A stretch of DNA of 64,000 nt from Lysobacter sp. K5869 (lineage in GTDB: Bacteria; Pseudomonadota; Gammaproteobacteria; Xanthomonadales; Xanthomonadaceae): NCBI RefSeq assembly GCF_018847975.1, contig NZ_CP072597.1, positions 2,395,001 through 2,459,000 on the forward strand. Reading direction: 5' to 3'. Shown here one piece after another: positions 9,208 to 36,415 of the stretch. Below the pieces are notes generated by a model. It did not search any database and was not told the origin of the DNA. It saw only the letters and a program-made list of their open reading frames with translations. The position numbers and the translations under genes are program-made. The stretch's first letter is position 1. Each line of letters starts with the position of its first letter.

Positions 9208-10092
9208 TTATTCGTCCACCAACGAACCGCCCGGCAGGAAATTCCAGGTCCGCGTCACGTGCAGGATGTCCGGGTTCTCTTCGGTCTTCGGCAGCGGCGG
9301 ATACGGTTCGGCCAGCTTGGCGATGCGCAAGGCCGAATCGTCGAGCAGGGCGATGCCGCTGCTGCGCACGATGTCGGCGCGTTCGACGCTGCCGTTGCGG
9401 CGCACCGCGACGCTGATGACCACTTGCCCGGCGAGCTTGCGCCGGCGCGCTTCGTCGGGGTAGTTGAGGTTGCCGACGCGTTCGACCCGGTCGACCCACT
9501 CGCGCAGGTAGCCGGCCCAGGCGTATTCGGTGGTGCTGGCGGAGACGAACTTGCGGGTCGGGCGCTTGGCGTAGCGCTCCGAGCGCATGTGGATCTCGGC
9601 CGCGAGCCGCGCCATCTCGATGTCGTGTTCGATCTTGCGCTGGCCGGCCGGCAGCGGGCGTTCGGTCGGGGTCTGGGTGATGCGTTCGCGCGGCGCCACG
9701 GTTTCGCCGCGGGTGCTGCTGACCACGCGCGCGGTCGGCTGCGGTTGCGCGGCCGGCGACTGCGCGCGCAGCGCCATCTGCGCCACGCCGGCCTCGGCCT
9801 GCGGCGAGGGGCCGGACTGGTTGTCGCGCGGGCGCGTGCTCTTGTCGTGCTCGCCGCCGCCCTGGTTGTTGGCTTGGGCGAGGAAGTCGGCTTGCTTGGG
9901 CGTCAGCGCGGTCTGGGTCTGGGTCAGGATCACGTCCAGGGTCGGCACCACCGGCGCGGCTTTCTCCAGGGTGTAGCCGACGCCGAGCAGCAAGATGCCG
10001 TGGACCAGCACCGACAGCACCATGGTCGCGCTGAAGCGCTGCGGCTCGGCCAGCCCGCCGCCGGGCAGGTGCGGAACGCCGACCGCGCTCAT
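9208..10092 (-). CDS. tonB: TonB-family energy transducer
   Basis: This 294-aa protein has an uncleaved N-terminal span (TMVLSVLVHGILLLGVGYTL, residues ~22-41) with the conserved SxxxH-type pattern (SVLVH) of TonB proteins. A Gln/Pro/Ala-rich periplasmic linker follows, then a C-terminal TonB domain (residues ~195-290) with LNYPDEARRRKLAGQVVISVAVRRNG and a closing TRTWNFLPGG. With ExbB/ExbD encoded elsewhere it would pass proton-motive force to outer-membrane receptors. The ATG overlaps the gshB stop by 4 nt (ATGA), so both are translated from one mRNA. A longer open frame upstream is only frame read-through into gshB. Confidence 0.87.
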   Translation of the reverse strand: MSAVGVPHLPGGGLAEPQRFSATMVLSVLVHGILLLGVGYTLEKAAPVVPTLDVILTQTQTALTPKQADFLAQANNQGGGEHDKSTRPRDNQSGPSPQAEAGVAQMALRAQSPAAQPQPTARVVSSTRGETVAPRERITQTPTERPLPAGQRKIEHDIEMARLAAEIHMRSERYAKRPTRKFVSASTTEYAWAGYLREWVDRVERVGNLNYPDEARRRKLAGQVVISVAVRRNGSVERADIVRSSGIALLDDSALRIAKLAEPYPPLPKTEENPDILHVTRTWNFLPGGSLVDE

Positions 10093-14965: not shown

Positions 14966-17900
14966 ATGACCGCCCTGCGCGAAGCGATCGACACCACCAC
15001 GCTGGGCTGGATCAAGCCCGAGCTGGACGAAACCCTGCGCCAGGCGCGCCAGGAGATCGAGGCGTTCGCCGAAGATCCCGCCGACGCCGCGCGCATGCGC
15101 GTGTGCGCGAACCATCTGCATCAGGTGCACGGCACCCTGCGCATGGTCGAGCTGTACGCCCCGGCGATGGTCGCCGAGGAAATGGAACGGCTGGCGCTGG
15201 CCCTGCAGCAGGGCAGCGTGCACGACCGCGACGAAGCCTGCGCGGCGCTGATGCGCGGCGTGGTGCTGCTGCCGGATTACCTGGAACGCCTGCAAGGCGG
15301 CCACCGCGACATCCCGATCGTGCTGCTGCCGCTGCTCAACGAGCTGCGCGCCACGCGCGGCGAGTCCGGGCTCAACGAAAGCGTGCTGTTCGCGCCCAAC
15401 CTCGACCGTCCGCTGCCGGCGCATCTGCCGCCGCCGCTGCCGGTCGGCGCGGCCGGCGGCCGCAACGCCAGCGCGCCGCATCTGGCCTCGCTGCGCGAAG
15501 CGCTGGGCGCGTGGCCGGAAGACGGCGCGCCGGGCAAGGTCGCGCAACTGGCCGCGGCCATCGACGGCCTGCTCGCCGAAGCCGTGCTGGAACCGGTGCG
15601 GCGCATGCTGTGGGTGGCTTCGGCCGTGGCCCACGCGGTGCGCGACGGCGCGTTGCCGCCGACCCGCGCGCTGCGCCAGGCCTTCGGCGGAGTCGAACGC
15701 GAAGCGCGGCAGATGCTGTCCGACGACGGCTTCAGCGCGCCGCGCGGCGAACCCGCGGCCGAGCCGACCCGTCAGCTGCTCTATCACGTCGCCCACAGCG
15801 ACGGCCGCCATCCGGCCCTGGACGATCTGCGCCAGACCTTCGAACTCGCCGCGCACCTGCCCAGCGAGTCCGAACTCGAACACGCCCGCGGCAGCCTCAG
15901 CGGCCGCAACCGCGCGCTGCTCGACACCGTCGCCGCGGCGATCAAGGAAGACCTGCTGCGGGTCAAGGACGCGCTCGACCTGCACCTGCGCACCAACCAG
16001 ACCGACCCGGGCGAACTGCGCCCGCAGGTCGAGGCCCTGGCCCGGGTCAGCGACACCCTCGGCATGATGGGCCTGGGCATGGCCCGCACCGTCGTGCTGC
16101 AGCAGCGCGACGCGATGAACGACATCGTCGACGGCCGCCGCGCCGCCGACGAAGGCACCCTGCTCGACGTGGCCGGCGCGCTGCTGTACGTGGACGCCTC
16201 GCTCGACGATCAGGTCAGCCGCCTCGGCCTGGCCGACGAAAAGGGCGACGAAGACTTGCTCGCCGGCGAGGCGCGCAAGGTGCTCGACGTGGTCGCGCGC
16301 GAAGCCATCGCCAACTTCGGCGACGCCCGCCAGTCCTTCGTCGCCTTCGTCGAGACCAAGTGGGATCACGAAGAACTCAGCGAAGTGCCGCGCGTCCTCG
16401 ACGAAGTCGCCGGCGCCCTGCGCATGATCGAGCTGCCGCTGGCCGCCGATTACCTCACCGGGGTCAAGCGCTACACCGAAGTCGAACTGATCGGCCGCCG
16501 CCGCGTGCCCAGCGGCCAGCAGCTCGACACCCTGGCCGACGCGCTGGCCAGCCTGGAGTACTACCTCGAAGCGCTGCGCGAGCAGCGCCCGAACCGCGAC
16601 GACATCCTCGACATCGCCCGCCAGAGCCTGGAAGCGCTGCGTTATTGGCCGCTGCCGGACGTGGTCCGGATCGAGCCGGTCGCCGCGGTGCCGGCGGAGG
16701 CCGCGCCGATCGCGCCCGCGGCCGAAGCGCCGGCCAGCCCCGCGCCCGCCGCCGAGCTCTCGCCGCCGCAGATTCCGGTCGCGCCGGAATGGGGCTTGGC
16801 CGAAATCGAAGCGCCGCAGCGCGCCGACGGCGAACCGCTGTCGCTCGACGCCGAACACGGCGCCGCCCAATACGCCTCCGCGTTCGATGCCGACCCCGCG
16901 CAAGCGCCGGCCGCCGAACCGGCCGACCTCACCGAACGCGTCTCCGGCGGTCTGGTCAACACCGCGCTGGTCGAAGCGGTGCCGTCGGCGCCGCCGTCGT
17001 TCCTGATCCCGTCCGGAGGCGCCCGTGGCGGCTTCGAACAGGTCGACGACATCGACGACGAAGTGCGCGAGATCTTCCTGGAGGAATTCGAGGAAGAGAT
17101 CGGCAACCTCGAACAACTGCTGCCGGCCTGGCGCGAAGCGCCGGACGATCTGGCCCGCGTGCAGCCGGTGCGCCGCGTCTTCCACACCCTCAAGGGCAGC
17201 GGCCGCCTGGTCGGCGCCAAGACCTTGGGCGAGTTCAGCTGGAAGATCGAAAACCTGCTCAACCGCGTGCGCGAGCACGGCCGCGTCGCCAGCCCGGAAG
17301 TGCTGGATCTGGTCGACCACGCCTACCGCGCGCTGCCGGGCTTCTACGCCGCGCTGCGCAACGAGGCGCCGCTGAGCGTCGACATCGCCGGCATGGAAGC
17401 GCACGCCGATCTGCTCGCCAGCGGCGAAGAAGCCTTCTATCGGCCGCCGGCCGCCGCGCCGGCGATCGAGCCCGCGGCCGAGGAAATCGCCGCGCCGAAG
17501 CCCGCCGTGGACGGCCCGTACGTGCCGGCCTCGGTCGATCCGGTGCTGCTGGAGATCCTGGACGGCGAAGTCGCCGGCCATCTGGTCACCATCGAATCCT
17601 GGCTCGACGCCTCGCGCACCCGGCCGCAGCCGGCCAACGACGCGCTGCAGCGCTCGATCCACACCATGAACGGCGCGTTCGCGATGACCGAAGTGCCGGT
17701 CATCACCGACGTCACCGGTCCGACCGAAGCCTACGTCAAGCGCCTGCTCGCCAGCGGCGCGCCGGCCAGCGCCGAGGGCGTGGCCGCGATGGGCGCGGTC
17801 GCCGCGGCGATCCGCACCACGATCGAAGCGCTGAAGTCGGCCAGCCCGCACGTGCCGATGTTCGTCGGCCTGCCCGAGCGCATCGCCGCGCTGCGCGACA

Positions 17901-20900
17901 GCCTGCCGGACGCGCGCGCGCCGATGCCGATGGACGACCTCGACCTCGCCGACGCGGCGGACGAGAGCGCCGCGCCGATCAGCGCCAACGATCTGAGCGC
18001 GTTCCAGGGCGAAGGCCCGGGCACCGCCGAGGTCCCGGCCGGCCGCACCGACGGCCGCCGCACCTCCGAGTTCACCATCGATTTCGCCTCCTTCGCCGGT
18101 TCGCTGGCGCAGAGCGATCAGACCCGCGCCGAGCGCGAAGCGGCGCAGAAGGCCGCGGCCGAACGCGCCGAAGCCGAGCGCGCCGAAGCCGAAGCCCAGC
18201 GCGTGGCGGCCGAACAGCTCGAAGCCGCGCGCGCGGCCGCCGAGCAGGCCGAAGCCGAGCGAGCGGCGGCGGAGCGGGCCGAAGCGGAGCGTTTGGAGGC
18301 CGAACGCATCGCCGCCGAGAAGGCCGAAGCGGAGCGTTTGGAAGCCGAACGCGTCGCCGCCGAGAAGGCCGAAGCGGAGCGTCTGGAGGCCGAACGCGTC
18401 GCCGCGGAGAAGGCCGAAGCGGAGCGTCTGGAAGCCGAACGCGTCGCCGCCGAGAAGGCCGAAGCGGAGCGTCTGGAAGCCGAGCGCATCGCCGCCGAGA
18501 AGGCCGAAGCGGAGCGTCTGGAAGCCGAACGCGTCGCCGCGGAGAAGGCCGAAGCGGAGCGTCTGGAAGCCGAACGTATCGCCGCAGAACAGGCCGAGGC
18601 CAAACGTCTCGAAGCCGAGCGCGTGGCCGCCGAGCAAGCCGAAGTCGAACGCCTCGCCGCGCTGCAAGCCGAAGCCGAACGGGCCGAAGCCGAACGCGTC
18701 GAGACTGAGCGCCTCGCCGCCGAACAAGCCGAAGCCGAACGCGCCGCCGCCGAGCGCGCCGCCGCGGACAAGGCCGAAGCCGAGCGCTTGGAGGCCGAGC
18801 GCCTCGCCGAGGAAGAGCGTCAGGAATACGCCCGCTTGGAGGCGCAGTACGCCGCCGAGGCCGAAGCCGCGCGTCTGGCCGCCGAACAGGCGCAGTCCGA
18901 GCGTCTGGAAGCCGAGCGCGTCGCCGCCGAACAGGCCGAAGCCGAGCGTCTGGAAGCCGAGCGTCTGGAAGCCGAACGCGTCGCCGCCGAACGGGCCGAA
19001 GCCGAACGCCTGGAAGCCGAACGCGTCGCCGCCGAACAGGCCGAAGCCGAACGTCTCGAAGCCGAACGCGTCGCCGCGGAACAGGCCGAAGCCGAACGCC
19101 TGGAAGCCGAACGCGTCGCCGCCGAACAGGCCGAAGCCGAACGTCTCGAAGCCGAACGCGTCGCCGCGGAACAGGCCGAAGCCGAACGTCTGGAAGCCGA
19201 ACGCGTCGCCGCGCAGCAGGCCGAAGCCGAGCGTCTGGAATACGAACGCCTCGAAGCCGAGTACGCCGCCGAGCGTCTGGCCCGCGAACACACCGAAGAA
19301 CCGGCCAACCTCGACGGCGTGCGCGTGGACGCGCAGCCGGCCGATGCCGCCGCCAACGACGAAGCCGAACCCGCCGTGGCCGGCGCCGCCGCGATCGGCG
19401 TGTCCGCCGCGCTGGCGGCCGCGTTCTTCAAGGCCGCCAACGCCGATCCGGATCCGGAAGAAGCGCTGGACCTGAGCGAGCTCGATCCCGAACTGGTCGA
19501 CATCTTCGTCGAAGAAGGCGGCGACCTGCTCGACCACTCCGACGGCCTGCTCGCGCAACTGCGCGAGACCCCGGGCGAGCGCGAGTTGCTGGTCGGCCTG
19601 CAGCGCGATCTGCACACGCTCAAGGGCGGCGCGCGCATGGCCGGCATCATGGCCGTGGGCGAACTCGGCCACGTCATGGAATCGCTGCTGGAAGCCGTGG
19701 TCGACCACCGCACCGAACTGGGCCGCGACAGCGTCGCCCTGCTCGAACGCGGCTTCGACCGCCTGCACGCGATGGTCACCCGGGTCGGCCAGCGCAAGGC
19801 GATCGCCATGCCGAACGCGCTGATCGCGATGTTCGACGCGCGTTCGCGCGGCGAACTCACGATCGACGTCGCCGATGCGGCCGCCGCCACGCCGGCCGTC
19901 GCGCCGGCGCAGCGCGCCGCCGAGGAGGTCGAACTCGACGAGAACGGCCTCAAGCCGCTGTCCGCGCCGATCATCGAACAGTCCCTGGCCGACGACGACG
20001 ACATCGGCGTGCGCGCGCCGCAGGAACAGGTGCGCATCCGCGCCGACCTGCTCGACCGCCTCGTCAATTACGCCGGCGAAGTCGCGATCTACCGCGCCCG
20101 CCTGGAGCAGCAGCTCGGCGCGTTCCGCGGCGCGATCGCGGAAATGGCGCAGACCAACCTGCGCATGCGCGACCAGCTGCGCCGCCTGGAAATCGAAACC
20201 GAAGCGCAGATCATCGCGCGCTACCAGCGCGAGGGCGATGCCGGCCAGCACACCTTCGACCCGCTGGAGCTCGACCGCTTCTCGACCCTGCAACAGCTCT
20301 CGCGCGCGCTGGCCGAATCGGCCGCCGACCAGAACAGCCTGCAGATCACCCTCGACGATCTGACCCGCCAGTACGAAACCCTGCTGCTGCAGCAGTCGCG
20401 CGTGAGCTCGGAGCTGCAGGAAGGCCTCATGCGCACGCGCATGGTGCCGTTCGATACGCTGCTGCCGCGCCTGCGCCGCGTCGTGCGTCAGGCCTCCAGC
20501 GAATTGGGCAAGCAAGTCGCGCTGAAGCTGGAAGGCACCCAGGGCGAACTCGACCGCAACGTGCTCGAGCGCATGACCGCGCCGCTGGAACACATGCTGC
20601 GCAACGCGGTCGCGCACGGCCTGGAAATTCCGGCCAAGCGCCGCGCCGCCGGCAAGGGCGACGAAGGCACGGTGCGCATCGCGGTGCGCCGCGAAGGTTC
20701 GGAAGTGGTGCTGGAAGTCGCCGACGACGGCGCCGGCCTGGACCGCGCGGCGATCCGCCGCCGCGGCGAAGAGCGCGGGCTGGTCCGCAGCGACGCGGTG
20801 CTGTCCGACTCCGACCTGGACATGCTGATCCTGGAGCCCGGCTTCTCCACCGCCGACGAGGTCAGCCGTCTGGCCGGCCGCGGCGTCGGCATGGACGTGG

Positions 20901-21841
20901 TCGCCAGCGAAGTGCGCCAGCTCGGCGGCGCGCTCGATATCCAATCCACGCCCGGCCAGGGCGTGCGCTTCACCCTGCGCCTGCCGCAGACGCTCGCGGT
21001 CACCCAAGCGGTGTTCGTGCGCATCGCCGACACCACCTTCGCCGTGCCGATCGCCTCGGTGCGCGGCGTCGGCCGGCTCTCGCGCGACCTGCTCGACCAG
21101 GGCGACGTGGCCTACCGCTACGGCGGCGAGGACTACTTCGTCCACGACCTCGGCGTGCTGGTCGGCCACGCGCCGGCCAAGGCCGAAGGCCAGCTGCAGA
21201 TGCCCTTGCTGCTGATCCGCTCGGGCGACCTGCGCGCGGCGGTGTCGGTGGATCAGGTCATCGGCAACCGCGAAATCGTGGTCAAGCCGGTCGGTCCGCA
21301 GATCGCTTCGGTGCCGGGCATCTTCGGCGCGACCATCATGGGCGACGGCCGCGTGGTGGTGATCCTCGACGTCGCTCCGCTGGTGCGCCGCCGCACCGCG
21401 CAGCTGCTGGACTTCGCCCAGAACGCGCCGCCGCCGATGGCGCCGCCGGAAGCGCGCAAGGTGCCGCTGGTGATGGTGGTCGACGACTCGGTCACCATGC
21501 GCAAGGTCACCGGCCGCGTGCTGGAGCGCCACAACTTCGAAGTGGCGACGGCGAAGGACGGCATCGACGCGCTGGAGCGCATGGCCGAGCGCGTGCCCGA
21601 CCTGATGCTGCTCGACATCGAGATGCCGCGCATGGACGGCTACGAATTGGCCACCCAGATGAAGGCCGATCCGATCCTGCGCCATGTGCCGATCGTGATG
21701 ATCACCTCGCGCAGCGGCGAGAAACACCGCCAACGCGCGTTCGAGATCGGCGTCGAACGCTATCTCGGCAAGCCTTACCAGGAGCCGGAATTGATCCGCA
21801 ACGTTTTCGAATTGCTGGGAATCGCGCGTCCCCATGTCTGA
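14966..21841 (+). CDS. pilL: PilL/ChpA hybrid chemosensory histidine kinase with long coiled-coil insert
   Basis: This 2291-aa hybrid kinase drives PilG/PilH phosphorylation. N-terminal ~550 residues contain degenerate Hpt-like bundles (for example [12 protein letters not shown]). Canonical Hpt motifs sit at His740 ([13 protein letters not shown]), His899 ([10 protein letters not shown]) and His1550 ([13 protein letters not shown]). The HATPase shows [17 protein letters not shown] and GRGVGMDV; next come a CheW-like domain and a C-terminal receiver with Asp2217 ([13 protein letters not shown]). Residues ~1050-1440 are an Ala/Glu/Arg repeat predicted to be one long helix or coiled coil. P. aeruginosa ChpA has more Hpt-type domains but no comparable insert that I know of. 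Start ATG 14966 lies 175 bp after pilJ. An antisense frame of over 2,700 codons across this gene is a composition artefact. Confidence 0.93.
18120..19290 (+). repeat. in-frame 45-bp tandem repeat array inside pilL
   Basis: About 390 codons consist of imperfect copies of a 15-residue unit close to [15 protein letters not shown] or [15 protein letters not shown]. The first block ends mostly in Lys and the second block mostly in Gln; a less regular stretch near 18600-18890 separates them. Many copies are nearly identical in DNA as well as protein, which points to recent unequal recombination or slippage. Repeat number could vary between strains without changing frame. Confidence 0.9.
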
Positions 21842-24008
21842 CGGCGATCGTCGTGTAGTGTTGTTGGCGCGCGCGGGCGTGGCCTGCGAGCGCCTGCGCG
21901 AAGCGCTGGCCGAGGCCGGCGCGCAGTTGGTCCTGCAAGGCGATCCGACCGTGCTCGATCCCAAGGAGCTGGACGCGGCCGATCCCGACGTGGTCGTGGT
22001 CGTGCTCGATCCGGCCTCCGAGGACGCGCTGGACCGGTTCGAGAATCTGCTGCTCGATCCGTCGATCGAAGTGATCTTCGAGGAGGCCGAACTGGCCGTC
22101 TCGCGCGAGGGCTGGGACGCGGCGCGCTGGGCGCGCCACCTCAGCGCCAAGCTGCATCGCCACGACGACGTGCTGCCGCCAGGCCGCGAGCCCGAGCCGG
22201 ACGCGCCGCCGGCGCTGCAGGCCGAAGGTTTCCACAAGCCGACGCAAGAAGGCTCACCGCTGGCGCAGGAGCCGGCCGAAGCGCCGGCCGGCGACAACGT
22301 GCTGGCGTTCGTGCGCCCGGCCGCGGCGTCCGCCGAGGCGGTCGTGATCGAATCGATCGTCGCCGAACCGGTCGCCGACGAAGACGCCGCGGCGGACGAA
22401 GCGCCCGCCGCCGAATACACCCTGGATTTCGCCGACGACGGCCGGTCGCCGACGCAAAGCGGCGCCGGCTTGATCGACTTCGACGACGCCGGCGACCGCG
22501 CCCGCGCGGACGGCCTCGACGCCGACGACGCCGGCTTGGACTCGATCGATTTGGATTCCACCGGCCTGGAGCCGGCCGCCGCCGAACCGGCGCGTCCGGC
22601 CTTCGACGCCGCCGACTTCGGCGAGATCGAGGAAATCGAAGCGGTCGAAGCGCTGCCCGCGTACGACGACGCCGAAGAACCGCCGCCGGCGCCCGCCGCG
22701 CACGCCAGCTTCGATCCGGTTTCGGCCGAAGCGCCGGCCGATCCGCTGTCGTTCGGCGGCGAATCGCTGGCCGAACTCGACCGCGTCGCGCCGACCGGCT
22801 CGGCCGGCGACCGCGTGCTGACCCAGCCGCCGCCGATGCCCGAGGAAGCGCGCGAATTCTTCGCCCGCCAAGCCCTGGGCGATGCGCCGCCGGCCGAAAA
22901 GCAAGGCGGCGACGATTTCGATTTCTCCAATCTGAGCCTGGAAATCGAGGATTACTCGACCCAGGTGCCGGCGCCCGCGCCGCACGCTTACGACGCCGGC
23001 GAGCACGACTGGCAGGCGCAGGGCGGCGACGCCGAACTGCCGCCGCTCGACGAGGCCGGCCTGGGCGACCTGGAAATGTGGCGCGCGCCGCAGCCGGGTC
23101 AGGTGCAGGAACTGGTCGACCTCGACGCCGCCTTCGCCGCGCCCGATCCCGACGCGCCGCTGGAGTTCGACGGCCACGTCGCGCCGGCCGCCCCGGCGCC
23201 GGCCGCCCCGGCGCCGGCCGCGCCCGGCTTCGACGCGAGCAAGTTCGAGACCACGCTGGATTTCGCCAGCGACGACATCGCTCCGTCGCGGCCGAGCGCG
23301 CCCGCGAGCGCGACGCCGTCGGTGCCGGATTGGTCGTTCGCCGACGAAACCAGTTTGGTCGAGGCCGCCACCGGCCAGAGCGGCGCGCACGCGCCGCCGG
23401 CGCCGCGCCACGATCTGGACGAAATCGAGCGCCGCATCTCTGCGCTGGAACTGGTCGACGACACGCCGCCGGAACCCGGCCGCAGCGGCGCCGTGCTGGT
23501 GCTCGCCGGCATCGGCGGTCCCGACGCGGTGCGCCAACTGCTCGGCGCGCTGCCGGACAACTTCGACCGCCCGGTGCTGGTGCAACAGCGCCTGGACGGC
23601 GGCCGCTACGACAAGCTGGTCGCGCAGATGCAGCGCGCCACGCCGGTGCTGGTGAAGCTGGCCGAAGCCGGCACCCGCACCATCGACGGGGTGATCTACA
23701 TCCTGCCGGCGGGCGTGGGCATCGAGCTGACCGAGCAGGGCATCCAGTTCGCCGAGGGCGCCGACGTGCTGGCCGCGTTGCCGGCCGGCGACAGCGCGGT
23801 GCTGTTGTTCAGCGGCGCCGACGCGGCGCAGGTCGACGAGGCGATGGGCTTGGCCGCGCACGGCGCGCTGGTCGCGGGACAGGCGCCGGACGGCTGCTAC
23901 GACGCCGCCGCCGCCAGCGCCGCGATCTCGCGCGGCGCGCTCAGCGGCCAGCCGGCCGATCTGGCCGCGCGCCTCGCCGCGCGCTGGTCGCGGCAGAGTC
24001 CGGTCTGA
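21834..24008 (+). CDS. CheB-like protein with degenerate catalytic triad (ChpB position)
   Basis: This 724-aa protein sits where chpB (receptor methylesterase) lies in Pseudomonas and overlaps pilL by 8 bp. Residues 1-100 look like a receiver-type alpha/beta domain without clear phospho-acceptor context. Residues ~110-540 are an acidic Ala/Pro/Asp-rich linker. Residues ~553-715 align by eye with the CheB methylesterase domain, but the catalytic Ser position (usually ASTGGP) is Gly559 in AGIGGP, the His position (VQHMP) is Gln585 in VQQRL, and the Asp position (TGMGxDG) reads SGADAAQ with Ala at the expected site. It is therefore probably a non-enzymatic scaffold or regulator. The fold assignment is my reading and was not checked by structure prediction. 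Confidence 0.75.
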
Positions 24009-24215
24009 GTCGCGACGCGCGCGGCGCGGGCTCTGCCTTCGTCGCGCGCGGATCGTCCGACGCGCGTGCGCCGCGATGCGCGGCCAGGGCGTAGCGCGAG
24101 CGATCGCGCGAGGGATCCAACGGCGGCGCGCATGCGCGCCGCCGCAACCGTTCACCGGCTCCGCGTCGCGGAGTCCAGTCATGAGATGAGCCGCGGCCGC
24201 GGCGAGGAAAGCGCG

Positions 24216-24809
24216 ATGTCCAATTCGATCCCCGACAACGAGACCGCACCGGTCGACGGCGCGCAGGACGAAACCGGCGGCGTTTCCGGCTCCGGCGACG
24301 ATTTCGCGGGCGGCGGTTCCAGCGACGGCGCGCCCGACGGCGCCACCGCCAACGACATCCGCGGCGTCTTGATCCAAGTGGCCGGCGCGCGCTTGCTGCT
24401 GCCCAACGCCACCATCGCCGAGGTGCTGTCCTACGCGCCGCCGGCGCCGATCGCCAACGCCCCGCGCTGGCTGCTCGGCCAGATCCGCTGGCGCGGCTGG
24501 AACCTGCCGATGATCGCGTTCGGCGAACTCTCGGGGCTGGCGCGCGAACCCGGCGGCCTCGGCAGCAAGGTGGTCGTGCTCAAGGCGCTCAGCGCCGCCT
24601 CGCGCCTGCCGTACTTCGCCATGCTGACCCAGGGCTTCCCGCGTCTGGTCACCGTGTCCGCGTCCGGCCTGTACCTGCAGAGCCGCGAGGACGAAGTCAT
24701 GCCGCTGGGCGTGCAGGCGCGGGTGCGCCTCAACGACGACGCCGCGCTGCTGCCGGATCTGGAAGCGGTCGAAGCGATGATCGGCGAAGCGCTCGCGCAA
24801 GCCGCGTGA
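24216..24809 (+). CDS. CheW-like chemosensory protein (ChpC position)
   Basis: This 197-aa protein has a disordered Gly/Asp-rich N-terminus (about 45 residues) and a CheW-like domain (GVLIQVAGARLLLPNATIAEVLSY; WLLGQIRWRGWNLPMIAFGEL). It corresponds in position to ChpC, a second adaptor that can link other receptors to the kinase. The ATG at 24216 is chosen because GAGGAAA lies 5 nt upstream; an in-frame ATG at 24186 is the alternative. Its stop overlaps the GTG start of the acyltransferase. The 207 bp before it contain no other gene. Confidence 0.82.
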   Translation: MSNSIPDNETAPVDGAQDETGGVSGSGDDFAGGGSSDGAPDGATANDIRGVLIQVAGARLLLPNATIAEVLSYAPPAPIANAPRWLLGQIRWRGWNLPMIAFGELSGLAREPGGLGSKVVVLKALSAASRLPYFAMLTQGFPRLVTVSASGLYLQSREDEVMPLGVQARVRLNDDAALLPDLEAVEAMIGEALAQAA

Positions 24810-26635: not shown

Positions 26636-27775
26636 ATGCGGTTCAAGCGAGTGTGGTGCGGAACGATGTCGTTGCTGGCCGTGGCGCCGGTCTGGGCCGC
26701 GGATGCGCCCTACAGCCTGTTGGGCGATTGGCCGGTCAAGCTCGTCGGCGCGTCGGGCATCGAAGCCGGGCTCAAGGGCAATCTGAGCTACGACGCGGCG
26801 GACTTCGACGACGCCGCGTTCGCCGACGACGACGCGTGGCGCCGGCAGGAGCTCAACGCCTACGTGCGCAAGCCGGGCGTGTTCGAGCTGACCCTGGGCT
26901 ACGACTTCCGCAACAAGGTCTGGCTCGACAACTTCGCGCGCATCTCCGGCGCCGCCGGCGACCTGCGCATCGGCCAGTTCAAGACGCCGGTGGGCTACGA
27001 GGAAAGCGTGGTCGGCACGACCGCCACGACCTTCATGGAGCGCGCGTTGCCGGTCACCGCGTTCTACGCCGGCCGCCGTCTCGGCGTGGACTGGACGTAC
27101 GAGAAAACCCCGAACTGGTATTTCAACCTCGGCGTGCAAGCCGGCGGCGATCTGCTCGGCGACAACCGTGGCCGCACGCTCGGCGGACGGGTCGTGTTCA
27201 ATCCGATCAAGGACGACGCGCAGGTGTTGCACCTCGGGCTGTCGGCGTCCGACGAGAAACGCGACGACGACAGCCTGCGCGTGCAGGTGCGGCCGGAAGC
27301 GTTCCTGACCTCGCGGCGGTTGGTCGACACCGGCGCGCTCAAGCGGGTCGAACGCATCGACCGGCTCGGCCTGGAAGCGATCTGGCAGCGCGGGCCGTTG
27401 CTGCTGCAGAGCGAATACCTGCGCATCGGCGCGAGCCGCGAGGGCGCGCCGGACTACCGCGGCGACGGCTATTACCTCGCCGCCTCGTGGGTGCTGACCG
27501 GCGAGAAGCGCGCCTACAAGAGCGCGGCCTTCGGCAACCTCAAGCCGGCGCGCGAGTGGGGCGCGGTCGAACTGGCCGTGCGCTACTCGCATGTGGATCT
27601 GGACGATCCCGGCAGCGCGCTCGGCGGCCGCCAGAGCGACTGGACCGTCGGCGCCAACTGGTACCTCGGCCAGCATTTCAAGCTGCAGCTCGACTACGTG
27701 CGCGCCGACGCCCGCCGGCGCGGCGTTCGGCTGGATCCGAACATCGCCGAGATGCGCGCGCAAATCCATTTCTGA
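26636..27775 (+). CDS. OprO/OprP-family outer-membrane porin
   Basis: This 379-aa protein has a Sec signal (CGTMSLLAVAPVWA, cleaved near residue 22) and a beta-barrel body of alternating strands (for example FELTLGYDFRNKVWL, GDLRIGQFKTPVGYEESV) ending in the terminal phenylalanine (AQIHF) needed for Bam recognition. GQFKTPVGYEE is typical of the phosphate-selective porin family. Substrate cannot be inferred; relatives carry phosphate, polyphosphate or other anions. It is followed after 68 bp by the Hpt kinase, with a strong hairpin between them. Confidence 0.87.
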   Translation: MRFKRVWCGTMSLLAVAPVWAADAPYSLLGDWPVKLVGASGIEAGLKGNLSYDAADFDDAAFADDDAWRRQELNAYVRKPGVFELTLGYDFRNKVWLDNFARISGAAGDLRIGQFKTPVGYEESVVGTTATTFMERALPVTAFYAGRRLGVDWTYEKTPNWYFNLGVQAGGDLLGDNRGRTLGGRVVFNPIKDDAQVLHLGLSASDEKRDDDSLRVQVRPEAFLTSRRLVDTGALKRVERIDRLGLEAIWQRGPLLLQSEYLRIGASREGAPDYRGDGYYLAASWVLTGEKRAYKSAAFGNLKPAREWGAVELAVRYSHVDLDDPGSALGGRQSDWTVGANWYLGQHFKLQLDYVRADARRRGVRLDPNIAEMRAQIHF

Positions 27776-27843: not shown

Positions 27844-29991
27844 ATGCGAGCGGAAAGCGGAAACATCTGGAAACGCCACTTCACCCTGATCCTCGCGGTC
27901 GGGTTGTTCCTGGTCATCGCCGGCGGCCTGATCGCGCTGTCGCGCCTGCACGCCGCCACCATCGCCCAGGGCGCGGTGGCGCGCGACGTCGCCGGCCGCG
28001 AGCGCAGCTCCTCGCAGATCGTGCTGCGCGCGCTGCTGGAGATGGACGCCGACGCGCGCGAAGGCAGGCCGGCGTCGAAGGAGTCGCGCGAAACGCTGGA
28101 CACCCACGCCAAGCGCGTGAGCGACGCCATCGCGATGTTCGCCCGCGGCGGCCGCGCCGATCCCGCGCAGACGCTGGACTTCGACCCGCGCCGGGAGACG
28201 GCGACGATGGCCGACACGGGCGCGCAGATCGCCAAGCTGTGGGCGCCGTACCAACAGCGCATCCAGGCCGCGCTCGCGCCCGCCAGCGCGGACCCTGCGG
28301 CGCTGCGCGAAGCGATCGCCTACGGCCGCGGCAACAACGAGCGCCTGTTCCAACTGCTCAACGACTTCGTCGCCGAAACCCAGCAGATGACCGAAGGCGC
28401 GACCCGCCGGCTGACCTTGGTTCAGAACGTCGGCGCGCTGCTGATCTTCTTCAACTTCCTGTTCACCGCCCTGGTCGCGTTCCGCCGTCTGATCGCCGGC
28501 GACCGCGTGGTGGCCAAATCGCACAAGCAGACCGACGACATCCTGGCGACGGTGAAGGAAGGCCTGTTCCTGGTGACCGGCGACTTCGTCATCGGCGCGC
28601 AGATGTCGCACTCGCTGCCGCAGATCCTGCAGCGCCCGGTCGAGCCGGGCATGAACCTGATCGAGCTGATGCGGCCGATGGTGAACGCGGCGACGCTGGA
28701 AGCCACCCGCGATTACCTCGGCTTGTTGTTCGGCAAACGGGTCAAGGAAAACCTCGTCGCCAGCCTCAATCCGCTGTCGGAAGTGCCGATCGCCGGCGGC
28801 AGCGACGGGCGCGGGCAAGCGCTGCCGCGCTATCTCAACTTCCAGTTCAACCGCGTGCAGGAAGGCGAGGGCACCGTGCACTTGCTGGTGACGGTGTCGG
28901 ACGCGACCGAGCGCGTGCGCCTGACCCAGGAGGTCGCCGCCGCCAAGACCCGCACCCGCGAGGAAATGGAAAGCCTGCTGCGCGTGCTCAGCCGCGATTC
29001 GGCCGAGGTGCGCTTCTTCCTGCACCGCATCGGCGTGGTGCTGGAACGCATCAACGACGATCTGCGCCAGGCCGCCGGCCGCCGCGGCGGCACCGACTAT
29101 CTCGAGCTGGTCAACGCGATCTTCCGCGACGTGCATTCGCTCAAGAGCGAGGCGGCGGCGTTGAACCTGGAAATGCTCGAAGCGCTGGCGCACAACTTCG
29201 AGGTCGACCTGATCGGCCTGCGCGACCGCGGCGAAGTCGAAGGCGCCGACATGGTCAAGATGACCGTGCACCTGGACGATATGTTCGAGTGCGCGACGAC
29301 CATCCGCGAGTTCCTCGACCGCATCGGCGGCGGCAACGAGTCCGCGCGCGCGCCGGCCCAGGCGACGCCGGCGCAGCGTCTGGTCGAAGGCTGGAGCGGG
29401 CTGGCCGAGCGCATCGCCCGCGACCAGGGCAAGCGGGTCGCGCTGCAGCTGCAGCTCGACGCGCTCGACCGCGCGCCGGCGGAAACCCTCAACGCGATGC
29501 GCGCGATCGGCTTGCAGCTGCTGCGCAACGCGGTGTCGCACGGGATCGAGCCGGCGGCCGAGCGCGAATCGCTGGGCAAGCCGGGCGCGGGCGCGATCTC
29601 GGTCCGCAGCAGCGATGCCGGCAGCCGCCAGATCGAACTGAGCGTGCGCGACGACGGCCGCGGCATCGACGTGGCGCGGGTGCGCGCCGCGCTGGCCGCC
29701 AGCGGCCGCTACGCGCCGGAACAACTCGATGCGCTGAGCGACCGCGACGCGATCATGAAGATCTTCGAGCCCGGCGTGTCCACCGCGAGCGGCGCCAGCG
29801 ACCGCGACGCCGGCCACGGCGTCGGCATGGATCTGGTGATGAAGCAGGTGCGGGCGATGGCCGGGACCATTTCCTTGTCGACCAAGGTCGGCGCCTACAC
29901 CGAATTCCGCATCCGCCTGCCGATGGCCGAGGCCAAGCCGGCCGCGCCGGCGACGGCCGCCGACGGCGGCGATTTCCAACTCACCTTCTGA
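27844..29991 (+). CDS. membrane CheA-like histidine kinase (Hpt + HATPase), paralogue 1
   Basis: This 715-aa protein has TM1 (residues ~12-34), a ~160-residue periplasmic helical domain resembling PilJ-type sensors (VAGRERSSSQIVLRALLEM), TM2 (~195-218), a PAS-like segment, a coiled linker, an Hpt motif with His431 (DVHSLKSEAAAL) and a CheA-like ATPase domain (RNAVSHGIE; DDGRGID; FEPGVST; GHGVGMDL). No CheW-like domain follows, unlike true CheA. The ribosome site GGGGGGATAC is 9-10 nt before the ATG. CheY- and CheX-like genes follow at once, so a membrane-sensor to Hpt to CheY relay with CheX dephosphorylation is inferred. Two degenerate paralogues lie downstream. Confidence 0.85.
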   Translation: MRAESGNIWKRHFTLILAVGLFLVIAGGLIALSRLHAATIAQGAVARDVAGRERSSSQIVLRALLEMDADAREGRPASKESRETLDTHAKRVSDAIAMFARGGRADPAQTLDFDPRRETATMADTGAQIAKLWAPYQQRIQAALAPASADPAALREAIAYGRGNNERLFQLLNDFVAETQQMTEGATRRLTLVQNVGALLIFFNFLFTALVAFRRLIAGDRVVAKSHKQTDDILATVKEGLFLVTGDFVIGAQMSHSLPQILQRPVEPGMNLIELMRPMVNAATLEATRDYLGLLFGKRVKENLVASLNPLSEVPIAGGSDGRGQALPRYLNFQFNRVQEGEGTVHLLVTVSDATERVRLTQEVAAAKTRTREEMESLLRVLSRDSAEVRFFLHRIGVVLERINDDLRQAAGRRGGTDYLELVNAIFRDVHSLKSEAAALNLEMLEALAHNFEVDLIGLRDRGEVEGADMVKMTVHLDDMFECATTIREFLDRIGGGNESARAPAQATPAQRLVEGWSGLAERIARDQGKRVALQLQLDALDRAPAETLNAMRAIGLQLLRNAVSHGIEPAAERESLGKPGAGAISVRSSDAGSRQIELSVRDDGRGIDVARVRAALAASGRYAPEQLDALSDRDAIMKIFEPGVSTASGASDRDAGHGVGMDLVMKQVRAMAGTISLSTKVGAYTEFRIRLPMAEAKPAAPATAADGGDFQLTF

Positions 29992-30011
29992 CGCCGGCCG
30001 CGAGGGCTCCG

Positions 30012-30380
30012 ATGAAACTGCTGATCGTCGACGACTCCAACGTGATCCGCCAACGCATCGCGCGGTTGGCGAGCGACGCGCGCCTGCCCAACGTCGAGAT
30101 CGTCGGGCAAGCGCGCAACGGCGCCGAGGCGCTGAACCTGTTCGTGCGCCACCGCCCCGACGTGGTGACGATGGACCTGACCATGCCCGAGCTGGGCGGC
30201 GTGGAATGCACCGAACAGATCGCCGCCATCGACGACAACGTCAACATCCTGGTGGTGTCGGCGCTGAGCGACAAATCCACCGCGATCACCGCGCTCAAGA
30301 AGGGCGCGCGCGGCTTCCTCTACAAACCCTTCACCGACGACCAACTGGTCCAGGCCTTGCTGGAGATGCTGCCCCCATGA
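30012..30380 (+). CDS. CheY-like single-domain response regulator
   Basis: This 122-aa receiver shows LLIVDDSNVIRQR, phospho-acceptor Asp55 (TMDLTMPELGGVE), the switch serine in VVSALSDKS and the Lys in FLYKPF. It has no output domain, so it probably works by protein contact. It starts 20 bp after the kinase and its stop overlaps the start of the CheX-like gene by 4 nt. The acceptor residue is Asp, so the upstream kinase is its likely donor; CheX its likely phosphatase. Confidence 0.9.
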   Translation: MKLLIVDDSNVIRQRIARLASDARLPNVEIVGQARNGAEALNLFVRHRPDVVTMDLTMPELGGVECTEQIAAIDDNVNILVVSALSDKSTAITALKKGARGFLYKPFTDDQLVQALLEMLPP

Positions 30381-30838
30381 GCGACCTCAACGAAGCCGAG
30401 ATCAAGGTCTTCATCGACGCGGTCACCAACTACTTCAACCAGCTCACCCAGGAGCCGGCGAACGTGCGCGGCGCGTTCCTCGACGATCACGGCGGCGGCG
30501 TGCCGGTGTTCGACTACAGCGGGCAGATCGCGGTCAGCGGGCAGTTCCGCGGCACCATCACGGTGTCGGCGCCGCGGGCGATGATCCGGCACCTGCTGCT
30601 GGCGCTCAACGAAAGCGATCAATCCGACGCCAACCTGCGCGACACCGTCGGCGAATTGGCCAACACCCTGGCCGGCAACGCGCGCAAGCACTTCGGCGGC
30701 GAGATGGAGATCTCGGTGCCGCGCACCGCCGCCGGCGCCATCGGCAGCGCCGGCTCGCGCAAGCGGCCCTACGTGATCATGGTGAGTTGGAAAACCTACA
30801 GCGCATCGCTGGTGGTGGATATCGAGCGGCTGGAATAA
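30377..30838 (+). CDS. CheX-like CheY-P phosphatase
   Basis: This 153-aa protein resembles CheX/CheC-class phosphatases. Residues ~85-105 contain GELANTLAGNARKHFG, which fits the ExxN catalytic signature on one helix (Glu and Asn spaced by two). The rest has the alternating beta/alpha pattern of a CheX dimer. Its ATG overlaps the stop of the CheY-like gene, the tightest coupling possible, which supports an enzyme-substrate relationship. No chemotaxis receptor or CheW accompanies it. Confidence 0.82.
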   Translation: MSDLNEAEIKVFIDAVTNYFNQLTQEPANVRGAFLDDHGGGVPVFDYSGQIAVSGQFRGTITVSAPRAMIRHLLLALNESDQSDANLRDTVGELANTLAGNARKHFGGEMEISVPRTAAGAIGSAGSRKRPYVIMVSWKTYSASLVVDIERLE

Positions 30839-30993
30839 GCCGCCCCAGTTCGCGAAGGCGGCTCCGTCCGGGCGCCGGCGGCGGCGGAGTTCCCCCCCTG
30901 ATATGCGCCGCCGTACCGGATTGTGCCGCGCGGTCGGAGCCCGCCTTCGCGATTCGCGCGCCGTCGCGTCGGCGCGCGCAGGAGGAAAAGGCC

Positions 30994-33927
<2,934 letters not shown>

Positions 33928-34381
33928 ATCCGTCGGCGGCGCGAGCGCGTCCGACGCGCGAAGCCGTGCCGGGTCAGCGAACTTGCGCGGCGTCGCCGAC
34001 GAGCTTTCGCTCGCTCGCATTTGCGCCCCGCCGGCATGCAAAAGCCATTCAACGGCAGGACGTTTCGGATTCCCTGGGTTCTGTGGCGCGTTGAAAACAC
34101 GCTTCATTTGAGCAAAACAAGTGGAGAGAACCTGACTGAAAAGCGGACGCAGGCCGCGATGCCCTCGGGCCGCGCCACGTCCGTGCCCGGGCGCCGGAGC
34201 GCTTGTCCCCTGCGATGGCCGCTAGCGGCGCGAAGCCGCGGCCGGGCTGCGCGCGGACGCAACGGCCGCGGCGCCCCGGCGCATGTCCGCGAACGACTAA
34301 ATGCGACGAAGTAGCGGATATGTCTCCCTGCGTTCGGCCGGCCAGCGCGGACGTCCGTGCAAGGAGAAAAAGGGGAGGACT
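33928..34381. other. 454-bp gap before kinase paralogue 3
   Basis: No gene was found. The stretch 34030-34150 has markedly lower GC than its surroundings and contains TTGAAA-N17-AAAACA at 34091-34119, a weak promoter-like pair. A separate promoter for the third kinase paralogue is therefore plausible. GGGGAGGAC just before 34382 is its ribosome site. Confidence 0.4.
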
Positions 34382-36415
34382 ATGTTCGGGCAAGGGATTG
34401 GGACGGGCCGGCGCTGCCGCGTGTCGGCGGCGTTCGGGCTGTCGTTGCTCGGCGCGATGCTCGTCGCGGCGATGGCGGGCGCGTTGTCGGCGTGGCGGTT
34501 GGCCGAGGTGTGGCATCCGGGCGCGGTGCGCGATTATCTGGCGACGGGCCTGTTCGCCGGGGTCGCGGCGTCGGCGGCGGTGGCGTGGTGGGTGCTGGTG
34601 CCGGCCCGGCGCCTGCGCGAAGAGGAGCGCGAACGGGCGCGGTGGCGGGAACGCTGCGAGGATCTGCTGCGCGCCATGCCCGACGGTCTGTGTTTGATCG
34701 GCCCGGACTTCGTCGTCTGCGAGCCCGTATCGCCGTCCTTGGCGCAGGTCTTGCCCGGCGGACTGCGGCCCGGCGCGAATCTGCTCGAAGCGCTCGAACC
34801 CTTGCTCGACGCGGAGACCTTGACCGCGTTGCGCGTCTATCTGCGGCAACGGCTGCGCGCGGGGCCCGCGCCCGACCCGCGCGGGGCGGCGCCCAATCCG
34901 CTGGCGGAGGCGATGCTGCTGCGGCAGCCCGAGCGGCGTCCGCCGTTGAGTTTCCGTTTCGAACCGGTGATGCGCAGCGGCACCGTGGCCTACTTGCTGG
35001 TGATCGTCAGCGACGTCAGCCAGCGCTTGCGCGAGGCGCGCGAATCCGACGAAGCGCGCCAGCGCTCGCAAGCGCAGGCCGAAAGCCTGCTGCGGATCAT
35101 CGGCGGCGATCTGGGGCCGGTGCGCGCGTGCGTGCGCTTCGCCGAGCGCGCGCTGCAACGGGTCAACGAGCGCTTGCCGCGGATGCTCGCCGCCGACGGC
35201 ATCGACGAGCGCTCGGTCATCCGCCACTACCTGCTCGACCAAGTGCGCGCGATGGCCGCGGCGGCGGAAGAGATCGGGCTGGACCTGCTGCAAGGGCCGG
35301 CGCGGGCGTTGGAGGCCGGGTTGATGGCCGGCGCGGCGCGGCCGCAACAGGATCCGCAGACGGCCGCGAGCCTGGGCGCGCTCGCCGGCGGCGTGGGCGA
35401 ACGGCTGGTGCTGCTGCGCGAATGTTTGAAGGTCCTGGAACGCGATCGCGGGCGGCTCGAGTCCGTTGCGGCGAGCGAAGCGGACGGCCTCGCCGACCGG
35501 CTGGTCGAGGCCTATGTCTACGGCGAGTCGTTCGCGCAGGCGCAAGACGCCGACGCGCCGGCGGCGACCCACGGCGATGCCCCGCCGGCGCCCGCGGCGC
35601 AAGCGCGGCCGTCGCCGGATCCGGCTTCGCCCGAGGCGCCCGCGTCGGCGTCGGCGGTCGCGGCCCCCGCCGCCGATGCCGGAGACGAACGCTCCGCGGC
35701 CGCGGCCGCGCCGTTGTGGATCGTGGTGCGCCCCGGCGCCGCATCGGCGCACGCGGCGGCGCACGGCGAATCGGGCGCGCTCGCCTATCCGGTCGCCTGC
35801 GCGCTCGCGCAGAGCGCGGGCGGCGCGGCGCGTCCGCCGACGGAGCGTTCGGTCTTATGGGAATGGTCGTCGCTGGCCCGGCGCTTGGCCGGCGCTTACG
35901 ACAAGGCTGCGATGCTGGACGTCGAACTGGAGCCGTTCGCGCGGCTGTCGCCGGCGGAGGCGACGATGTTGAGCGAGGTCGGCAAGGAACTGATCGCCAA
36001 CGCGGTGCTGCACGGGATCGAGCCGGTGGCGACGCGGCGGCGGCGGGGCAAGACCTCGACCGGATCGGTGCGCCTGCGCCTGAGTCACGACGAAGAGGAA
36101 GGCTGGCGCTTTTGCGTGCGCGACGACGGCGGCGGACTCGAATCGGGCGCCTTGCGGTTGGCGCTGCTGCGCGAGGGCCGCTACCGCGCCGAAGACATCT
36201 TGCGCATGGACGAGCGCGAGGTGCTGTTGAAGGCGTTCGAGCCGGGCGTGACCCGCTCGGGACCGATCGCGGCCGGGATCGACGGCCGCAACCTGGGCAT
36301 GGGCATGGGGCTGCCGATCGTGGCCGAACGCGTGAGCGGCCTGGGCGCGGAGTTGTCGTTCTCCAGCGTGCTGGGGCAATCGACCGAACTGCGGATCGTC
36401 TGGCCTTCGGCATAG
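34382..36415 (+). CDS. degenerate CheA-like kinase, paralogue 3 (Hpt His replaced by Arg)
   Basis: This 677-aa protein follows the plan of paralogue 2: two spans (~14-36, ~46-66) with a tiny periplasmic loop, a PAS-like block (DGLCLIGPDFVVCEPVSPS; NPLAEAMLL), an Hpt-like helix LDQVRAMAAAAEEIGLDLLQ with Arg289 at the phospho-His position, an Ala/Pro/Asp-rich linker, and an ATPase domain with ANAVLHGIEP, RDDGGGL, FEPGVT and GMGMGLPIV. It is closer to paralogue 2 than to paralogue 1, so it probably arose by duplication after the His was lost. The ATG at 34382 follows GGGGAGGAC. No response regulator adjoins it. Confidence 0.8.
   Translation: MFGQGIGTGRRCRVSAAFGLSLLGAMLVAAMAGALSAWRLAEVWHPGAVRDYLATGLFAGVAASAAVAWWVLVPARRLREEERERARWRERCEDLLRAMPDGLCLIGPDFVVCEPVSPSLAQVLPGGLRPGANLLEALEPLLDAETLTALRVYLRQRLRAGPAPDPRGAAPNPLAEAMLLRQPERRPPLSFRFEPVMRSGTVAYLLVIVSDVSQRLREARESDEARQRSQAQAESLLRIIGGDLGPVRACVRFAERALQRVNERLPRMLAADGIDERSVIRHYLLDQVRAMAAAAEEIGLDLLQGPARALEAGLMAGAARPQQDPQTAASLGALAGGVGERLVLLRECLKVLERDRGRLESVAASEADGLADRLVEAYVYGESFAQAQDADAPAATHGDAPPAPAAQARPSPDPASPEAPASASAVAAPAADAGDERSAAAAAPLWIVVRPGAASAHAAAHGESGALAYPVACALAQSAGGAARPPTERSVLWEWSSLARRLAGAYDKAAMLDVELEPFARLSPAEATMLSEVGKELIANAVLHGIEPVATRRRRGKTSTGSVRLRLSHDEEEGWRFCVRDDGGGLESGALRLALLREGRYRAEDILRMDEREVLLKAFEPGVTRSGPIAAGIDGRNLGMGMGLPIVAERVSGLGAELSFSSVLGQSTELRIVWPSA

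Follow-up and report, generated by a model that had tools for sequence, protein, structure and literature searches.

Three neighbouring genes in a 64,000-nucleotide stretch of DNA from Lysobacter sp. K5869 (NZ_CP072597.1, positions 2,395,001 to 2,459,000; hereafter the window, within which all coordinates count) encode CheA-like kinases, of which the first, P1, carries the phospho-accepting histidine in its Hpt domain, whereas the two others, P2 and P3, do not. Alignment with their relatives indicates that the loss of this histidine is general among the P2/P3 proteins found, and that the arginine present in both copies here is not conserved as its substitute. Most of the ATP-site core is kept, and the copies probably target other signalling proteins, not themselves. 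Our preferred reading, put forward tentatively, is that P2, and possibly P3, phosphorylates the Hpt domain of another protein in trans, with His431 of P1 as the first candidate; a role of P2 as nucleotide-dependent modulator or decoy is about as likely.

All three genes are intact open reading frames on the + strand, located exactly where the first-pass annotation of this DNA had placed them. P1 (27844..29991, 715 amino acids) comprises a transmembrane segment, a periplasmic helical bundle, a second transmembrane segment, a PAS domain, the Hpt domain and a CheA-type ATPase domain; the CAT codon of His431 lies at 29134..29136 (+), and this residue aligns with a histidine of the CheA P1-domain chains 3kyi and 1tqg. 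P2 (30994..33927, 977 amino acids) consists of a transmembrane hairpin, a PAS domain, a pseudo-Hpt domain with Arg288 in place of the phospho-histidine (CGC, 31855..31857, +, by alignment), a disordered linker (residues about 372-738; 32107..33207, +) that is rich in Pro, Ala, Ser, Thr and Gly and has a predicted local distance difference test score (pLDDT) mostly below 50, and a CheA-type ATPase domain (residues 792-974; 33367..33915, +). P3 (34382..36415, 677 amino acids) is the second pseudo-Hpt paralogue, with Arg289 encoded by CGC at 35246..35248 (+, by alignment). Searches within the own genome matched P1 to P2 with E-values of 1.1e-35 for the PAS-Hpt part and 3.5e-33 for the ATPase part, and P1 to P3 with 5.7e-26 and 9.5e-29, respectively; on these sequences the three proteins are paralogues beyond chance, as the first-pass annotation had claimed, and the residue numbers that it gave for the one Hpt site (His431, Arg288, Arg289) proved exact.

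In the profile search suggested at that stage, Pfam recognized P1 as having both an Hpt domain (26.0 bits against a cut-off of 24.6) and HATPase_c (55.1 bits), and P3 as having HATPase_c (33.8 bits, cut-off 26.4), but HATPase_c in P2 stayed below the threshold, and Hpt was found in neither P2 nor P3. At E-values up to 1, neither the H-kinase_dim nor the CheW family was detected in any of the three. Since the dimerization and CheW-like domains of CheA (its domains P3 and P5) were not found, we refer to the proteins as CheA-like rather than CheA. Each of the ATPase domains has sequence matches among CheA P4 structures (P2 at 1.8e-13, P3 at 3.0e-8), and for P1 and P2 the fold agrees as well. Structure prediction, carried out for P1 and P2, bore out the proposed correspondence of their Hpt regions: each model combines a PAS-like and an ATPase domain with an Hpt bundle of four helices, and the second helix ends 8 residues after His431 and Arg288 alike (at residues 439 and 296, respectively). 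The bundle of P2 is CheA-P1-like, with block pLDDT values of 88-98, and both the Hpt domain of P1 and the pseudo-Hpt domain of P2 resemble the P1 domain of CheA3. The Hpt piece of P2 had no Hpt match by sequence among solved structures, and we therefore assign it to the Hpt domains by its homology to P1 and its fold.

To follow the acceptor position across relatives, 5.8 billion proteins were searched, each search scoring about 8,000 candidates with the most words in common, which yielded 96 matches for P1 (P1 included), 14 for P2 and 9 for P3. The alignment held P1 and 86 of its matches, 14 P2/P3 proteins and six genome copies; nine of the 96 P1 matches, which have a CheW-like domain (P0111-P0119), were set aside from the histidine count, as were the distant CheA-type matches of P2 (P0018, P0019) and of P3 (P0021-P0024) and one P2 match, P0017, that is P3 itself with a later start. 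Position 431 is His in 86 of the 87 aligned P1 rows, the remaining row being a fragment with a gap there. Among the 14 distinct P2/P3 proteins not one has His: nine have Arg, four Gln and one Asn (13 Arg, 6 Gln and 1 Asn over 20 rows when the six genome copies, each identical in this segment to a protein already listed, are added). Thus, the proposal that duplication was followed by a loss of the phospho-histidine that is conserved in orthologues holds, whereas conservation of the arginine does not. Where codons were read at the site, Arg is encoded by CGC, Gln by CAG or CAA and the His of P1 by CAT, which is compatible with more than one first substitute for His. No other histidine takes its place by alignment. 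His307 of P2 aligns with His450 of P1, which is also present in solved CheA P1 domains, and His282, the sole histidine of the P3 Hpt region, falls at P1 position 424, which is likewise His in P0025 and P0032, two relatives that retain His431. His282 (35225-35227) lies seven residues before Arg289, and the alignment places both in one predicted Hpt helix.

A tree of 43 rows, calculated with column 431 left out and rooted for drawing only, places P2 and P3 in one clade (support 100/100) on a stem of 1.38 changes per site. This clade joins the P1 proteins of Lysobacter, with support of 99/100 for a wider group that includes P0043 and of 85/85 for the exact sister position; within it, P3 and its one orthologue stand beside the Arg clade (99/94). 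Long end branches and an odd letter composition in 12 rows, P2 and P3 among them, were flagged for this tree. One duplication of P1 followed by one of P2 would explain the three genes. The wording of the first-pass annotation hinted at an identical change in each copy; since P2 and P3 form a single clade, their common arginine is most simply inherited, and the position of P3 beside the Arg clade likewise speaks against repeated independent changes from His to Arg. Separate losses of His in the Arg clade and in the Gln/Asn clade are possible on these sequences.

Conservation of the ATPase domain was scored at 23 positions that are at least 97% identical and were chosen from P1-family rows alone. 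Fifteen of them are kept in every one of the 13 P2/P3 proteins with this domain; counted protein by protein, 17-20 are preserved. The earlier claim that the ATP-binding motifs survive is therefore right for the core, which is not decayed in the orthologues, but two further positions, Q558 and R561, are changed throughout. Of 14 Hpt positions with an identity of at least 90% among P1 rows, 7-9 survive in P2 proteins, 5 in P3 and 4 in its orthologue; K434 and H450 are each retained in 10 of the 14 P2/P3 proteins. Selection was estimated as the ratio of non-synonymous to synonymous substitution rates (dN/dS) for 21 pairs of P2 genes from different genomes. The two close pairs gave 0.04 and 0.12 for the pseudo-Hpt domain, 0.14 and 0.18 for PAS, 0.16 and 0.22 for the ATPase domain, and 0.66 and 0.58 for the linker. 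Two further changes set the copies apart, both absent from the first-pass annotation: the periplasmic sensor of P1 is lost in P2 and P3, and the linker before the ATPase domain spans 249-446 amino acids in 12 P2 rows and 139 in P3, compared to 15-19 in the four P1-family rows measured.

The gene order around P1 points to a signalling unit. Between P1 and P2 lie genes for a single-domain CheY-like response regulator (30012..30380, +; Response_reg, 93.1 bits) and a CheX-type phosphatase (30377..30838, +; CheX, 62.9 bits), neither of which the first-pass annotation had mentioned. P1, regulator and CheX occur together in all nine Lysobacter loci, that of the window included, and in four of four loci outside the family, read in three genomes that belong to two families, that is in 13 of 13 loci read. 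Judged by these protein families, P1 looks like a sensor kinase whose Hpt domain loads the CheY-like regulator, with CheX acting as the phosphatase. P1 relatives exist outside Xanthomonadaceae, and many of them bear a PilJ-type N-terminal domain. No description of the P1 family (transmembrane sensor bundle, PAS, Hpt and ATPase) was seen in literature searches that had other aims.

Among 20 Lysobacter genomes, P1 is present in nine, P2 in seven and P3 in that of strain K5869 only. The P2 reading frame is open in all seven carriers, and a scan of genome contigs named Lysobacter enzymogenes ATCC 29487, Lysobacter sp. yr284 and Lysobacter sp. ISL-50 among the strains that have it. In an even draw of 297 genomes of the family, P1/P2-type PAS-Hpt sequences occurred in eight, all from Lysobacter (one of 54 genera), G001 and G007 having no match among those listed. 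The insertion site before rsmE-bioA is found in several states: it is empty in G005, G008 and G010; holds porin-P1-regulator-CheX in G001, G003 and G017; P1-regulator-CheX followed by P2 in five genomes, namely G002, G004 and G006, read together with the porin gene, and G007 and G009, read from P1 onwards; porin and P2 alone in G015; and both P2 and P3 after P1, regulator and CheX in the own genome only. Three of the ten genomes without P1 or P2 were inspected at this site. In G015 (locus L085, about 9390-9717), an open P2 follows the porin gene without P1, regulator and CheX in between. Homology to the window breaks off just past the porin gene (about 27815) and is picked up again where CheX ends (about 30821). 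We read this state as a deletion because the P2 of G015 groups with P2 from P1-bearing genomes. The single orthologue of P3 is short and metagenomic (P0020, 396 amino acids, on a contig of 3661 bases).

The duplication, the loss of His, the preserved ATP-site core, the lost sensor, the linker, the purifying selection in close pairs and the gene order are all seen in sequences and models; ATP hydrolysis, partner, phosphotransfer and output are inferred, as follows. P2, and possibly P3, would be a kinase anchored in the membrane, without an acceptor of its own and with its ATP-using domain on a long flexible tether. In a mixed assembly formed through PAS and transmembrane segments, P2 would phosphorylate His431 of P1 in trans; phosphorylated P1 would then pass the phosphate to the CheY-like regulator, from which CheX would remove it. 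Where P1 is absent, the target may be another Hpt protein, e.g. the ChpA-like protein of the adjacent cluster. A fuller scheme, which we consider rather unlikely as a whole, would have P1 sense and carry the phospho-histidine, with P2 (and here P3) as sensorless, acceptor-less, tethered kinase arms that load His431 in trans and so adjust how strongly, or above which threshold, the CheY-CheX branch responds, the split system having arisen from a self-contained sensor kinase by tandem duplication within this one genus.

Several observations weigh against trans-phosphorylation. The Pfam score of the P2 ATPase domain (19.8 bits) is under the cut-off of 26.4. Q558 has become Glu and R561 Ala or Gly in 13 of 13 P2/P3 ATPase domains; both are near-invariant N-box positions of the P1 family, R561 adjoining the Asn of the box, and S646 is altered in 12 of 13 proteins and F688 in most. 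Given the changes at Q558 and R561, catalysis may be altered or lost, and because of them we lowered our estimate for this reading slightly. The CheA dimerization domain was found by Pfam in none of the three proteins, so that a mixed assembly is assumed. As G015 has P2 without P1, regulator and CheX, P1 cannot be the only partner of P2. Catalysis in trans would not need the Hpt fold that P2 nevertheless keeps, which favours a binding role. P0020 stops in the linker before the ATPase domain, through true truncation or contig error, and P3 has a long branch (0.97). Finally, the other P2 pairs gave higher dN/dS values, reaching 0.26-0.93 for the Hpt region and often exceeding those of the P1 Hpt domain of the same genomes (0.39 vs 0.17 between the own genome and G002, 0.40 vs 0.04 between the own genome and G009). 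Low values in close pairs and higher ones in distant pairs suggest that the pseudo-Hpt domain is held in the short term and is freer than its parent over longer times.

Some of these features would also suit functionless, decaying duplicates, namely the sub-threshold ATPase domain of P2, the two changed ATPase positions, the stem of 1.38 changes per site, the higher dN/dS in distant pairs, and the long branch and short orthologue of P3. However, the reading frames are open in seven of seven genomes, all 13 proteins retain 15 of the 23 ATPase positions, and in the two close pairs the folded domains gave dN/dS values of 0.04-0.22, which makes decay very improbable, an argument that counts more for P2 than for P3.

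More serious is the possibility that P2 joins P1 in an assembly, or uses its His-less Hpt domain to bind the regulator or CheX, and tunes the pathway as a nucleotide-dependent modulator or decoy without phosphotransfer. By analogy with AHP6 and DivL, this would fit the confidently modelled pseudo-Hpt bundle and its strong purifying selection in both close pairs, and the changes at Q558 and R561 would fit a loss of catalysis with nucleotide binding retained. AHP6 of Arabidopsis is described as an inhibitory pseudo-HPt with Asn in place of His that competes with true HPts (PMC7402358), and DivL of Caulobacter as a PAS-bearing pseudo-kinase with Tyr for the phospho-histidine, weak ATP binding and no kinase activity, which senses a regulator and acts on another pathway (PMC4211667). 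P2 and P3 share with AHP6 the replaced His in an Hpt protein, AHP6 being a plant phosphotransfer protein, and with DivL the PAS domain and the replaced phospho-histidine (no His in 14 of 14). P2 differs from DivL in being an Hpt protein of the CheA type with most ATP-site positions preserved under selection, its ATP binding being judged from residues; moreover, P2 proteins keep just 7-9 of 14 conserved Hpt positions, and the long ATPase linker would have no obvious use in a modulator. The Lys three places after the lost His is present in P2 of the six genomes with P1 and regulator and is Gly in G015, in line with a binding role, but this pattern represents one lineage and is not a test. Modulation of the intact kinase, as proposed in the first-pass annotation, is possible but cannot account for everything, since G015 has P2 without P1, regulator and CheX.

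P2 and P3 might instead serve, as trans-kinase or scaffold, a neighbouring Pil-Chp-like system rather than P1. The cluster in question (14966-24809) encodes a 2291-amino-acid protein with four Hpt matches, which we take to be ChpA-like, together with CheB-type and CheW-type proteins. The locus follows ChpB- and ChpC-like genes in those compared loci that are long enough to show them, and G015 has P2 and a ChpA-like gene without P1; in addition, FimL of Pseudomonas aeruginosa, a His-less Hpt protein, is proposed to act with ChpA (PMC3019171). Two seemingly unrelated genes (acyltransferase-like and porin) nevertheless intervene 5' of the locus, P2 is closest to P1, and P2 is absent from 13 of the 20 Lysobacter genomes, so that we regard this connection as unlikely. 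The second of these genes, which encodes a phosphate-selective porin O/P (26636..27775, +), lies directly upstream of P1; it stands beside P1 or P2 in eight of eight Lysobacter loci compared and is missing from three loci without P1/P2. Promoter and terminator scans of the locus gave results no better than those for shuffled sequences.

To our knowledge, neither FimL nor AHP6 has a kinase domain. Trans-phosphorylation by P2 would come closest to the CheA3/CheA4 pair of Rhodobacter sphaeroides, described as a system in which an acceptor-less kinase loads the Hpt domain of its partner, with catalytic domain and phospho-acceptor on separate CheA-type proteins (PMC3591291). P2 and P3, with an ATPase domain and no phospho-acceptor in their sequences, share this split. 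Unlike CheA4, which is described as having no P1 domain altogether, P2 keeps the fold without the His; the acceptor protein P1 is also catalytic, having both His431 and HATPase_c; P1 and P2 have membrane anchors and no CheA dimerization or CheW domain was found in them; and phosphotransfer is only proposed here. FimL is reported to carry Gln at the acceptor sites of its Hpt-like domains, to be tied to the Pil-Chp system and to be homologous to the N-terminal 563 amino acids of ChpA (PMC3019171). The P2 family likewise has a His-less Hpt domain and includes Gln at the site; unlike FimL, P2 has its own ATPase domain, transmembrane hairpin and PAS domain and derives from P1. Nor do P2 and P3 follow the ChpA N-terminus as FimL does, since they have a CheA-type ATPase domain and form one clade beside P1, FimL being compared here by its description. 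Extra Hpt domains without the conserved His occur in ChpA and CheA3, their role being stated as undetermined (PMC10782961); these share a protein with His-bearing Hpt domains, none of which was found in P2 or P3.

His-less Hpt domains as such are thus already known (FimL; the extra Hpt domains of ChpA and CheA3), and the earlier statement that no system of this form has been described goes too far, because FimL, AHP6, DivL and CheA3/CheA4 are each close in one respect. In the open-licence literature searched, we came across no report of a membrane CheA-like kinase accompanied at its locus by an acceptor-less paralogue derived from it. Here, a His-less Hpt domain is kept inside a nearly complete kinase next to the active parent, and genomes stand at several steps of gain and loss; the question of what such a domain does is therefore testable in Lysobacter strains. 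If trans-phosphorylation is true, the locus would show a route from gene duplication to a split kinase, and if the split-system scheme is true, the genomes with an empty site, with P1, with P1 and P2, with P1, P2 and P3, and with P2 alone would show such a system arising and coming apart.
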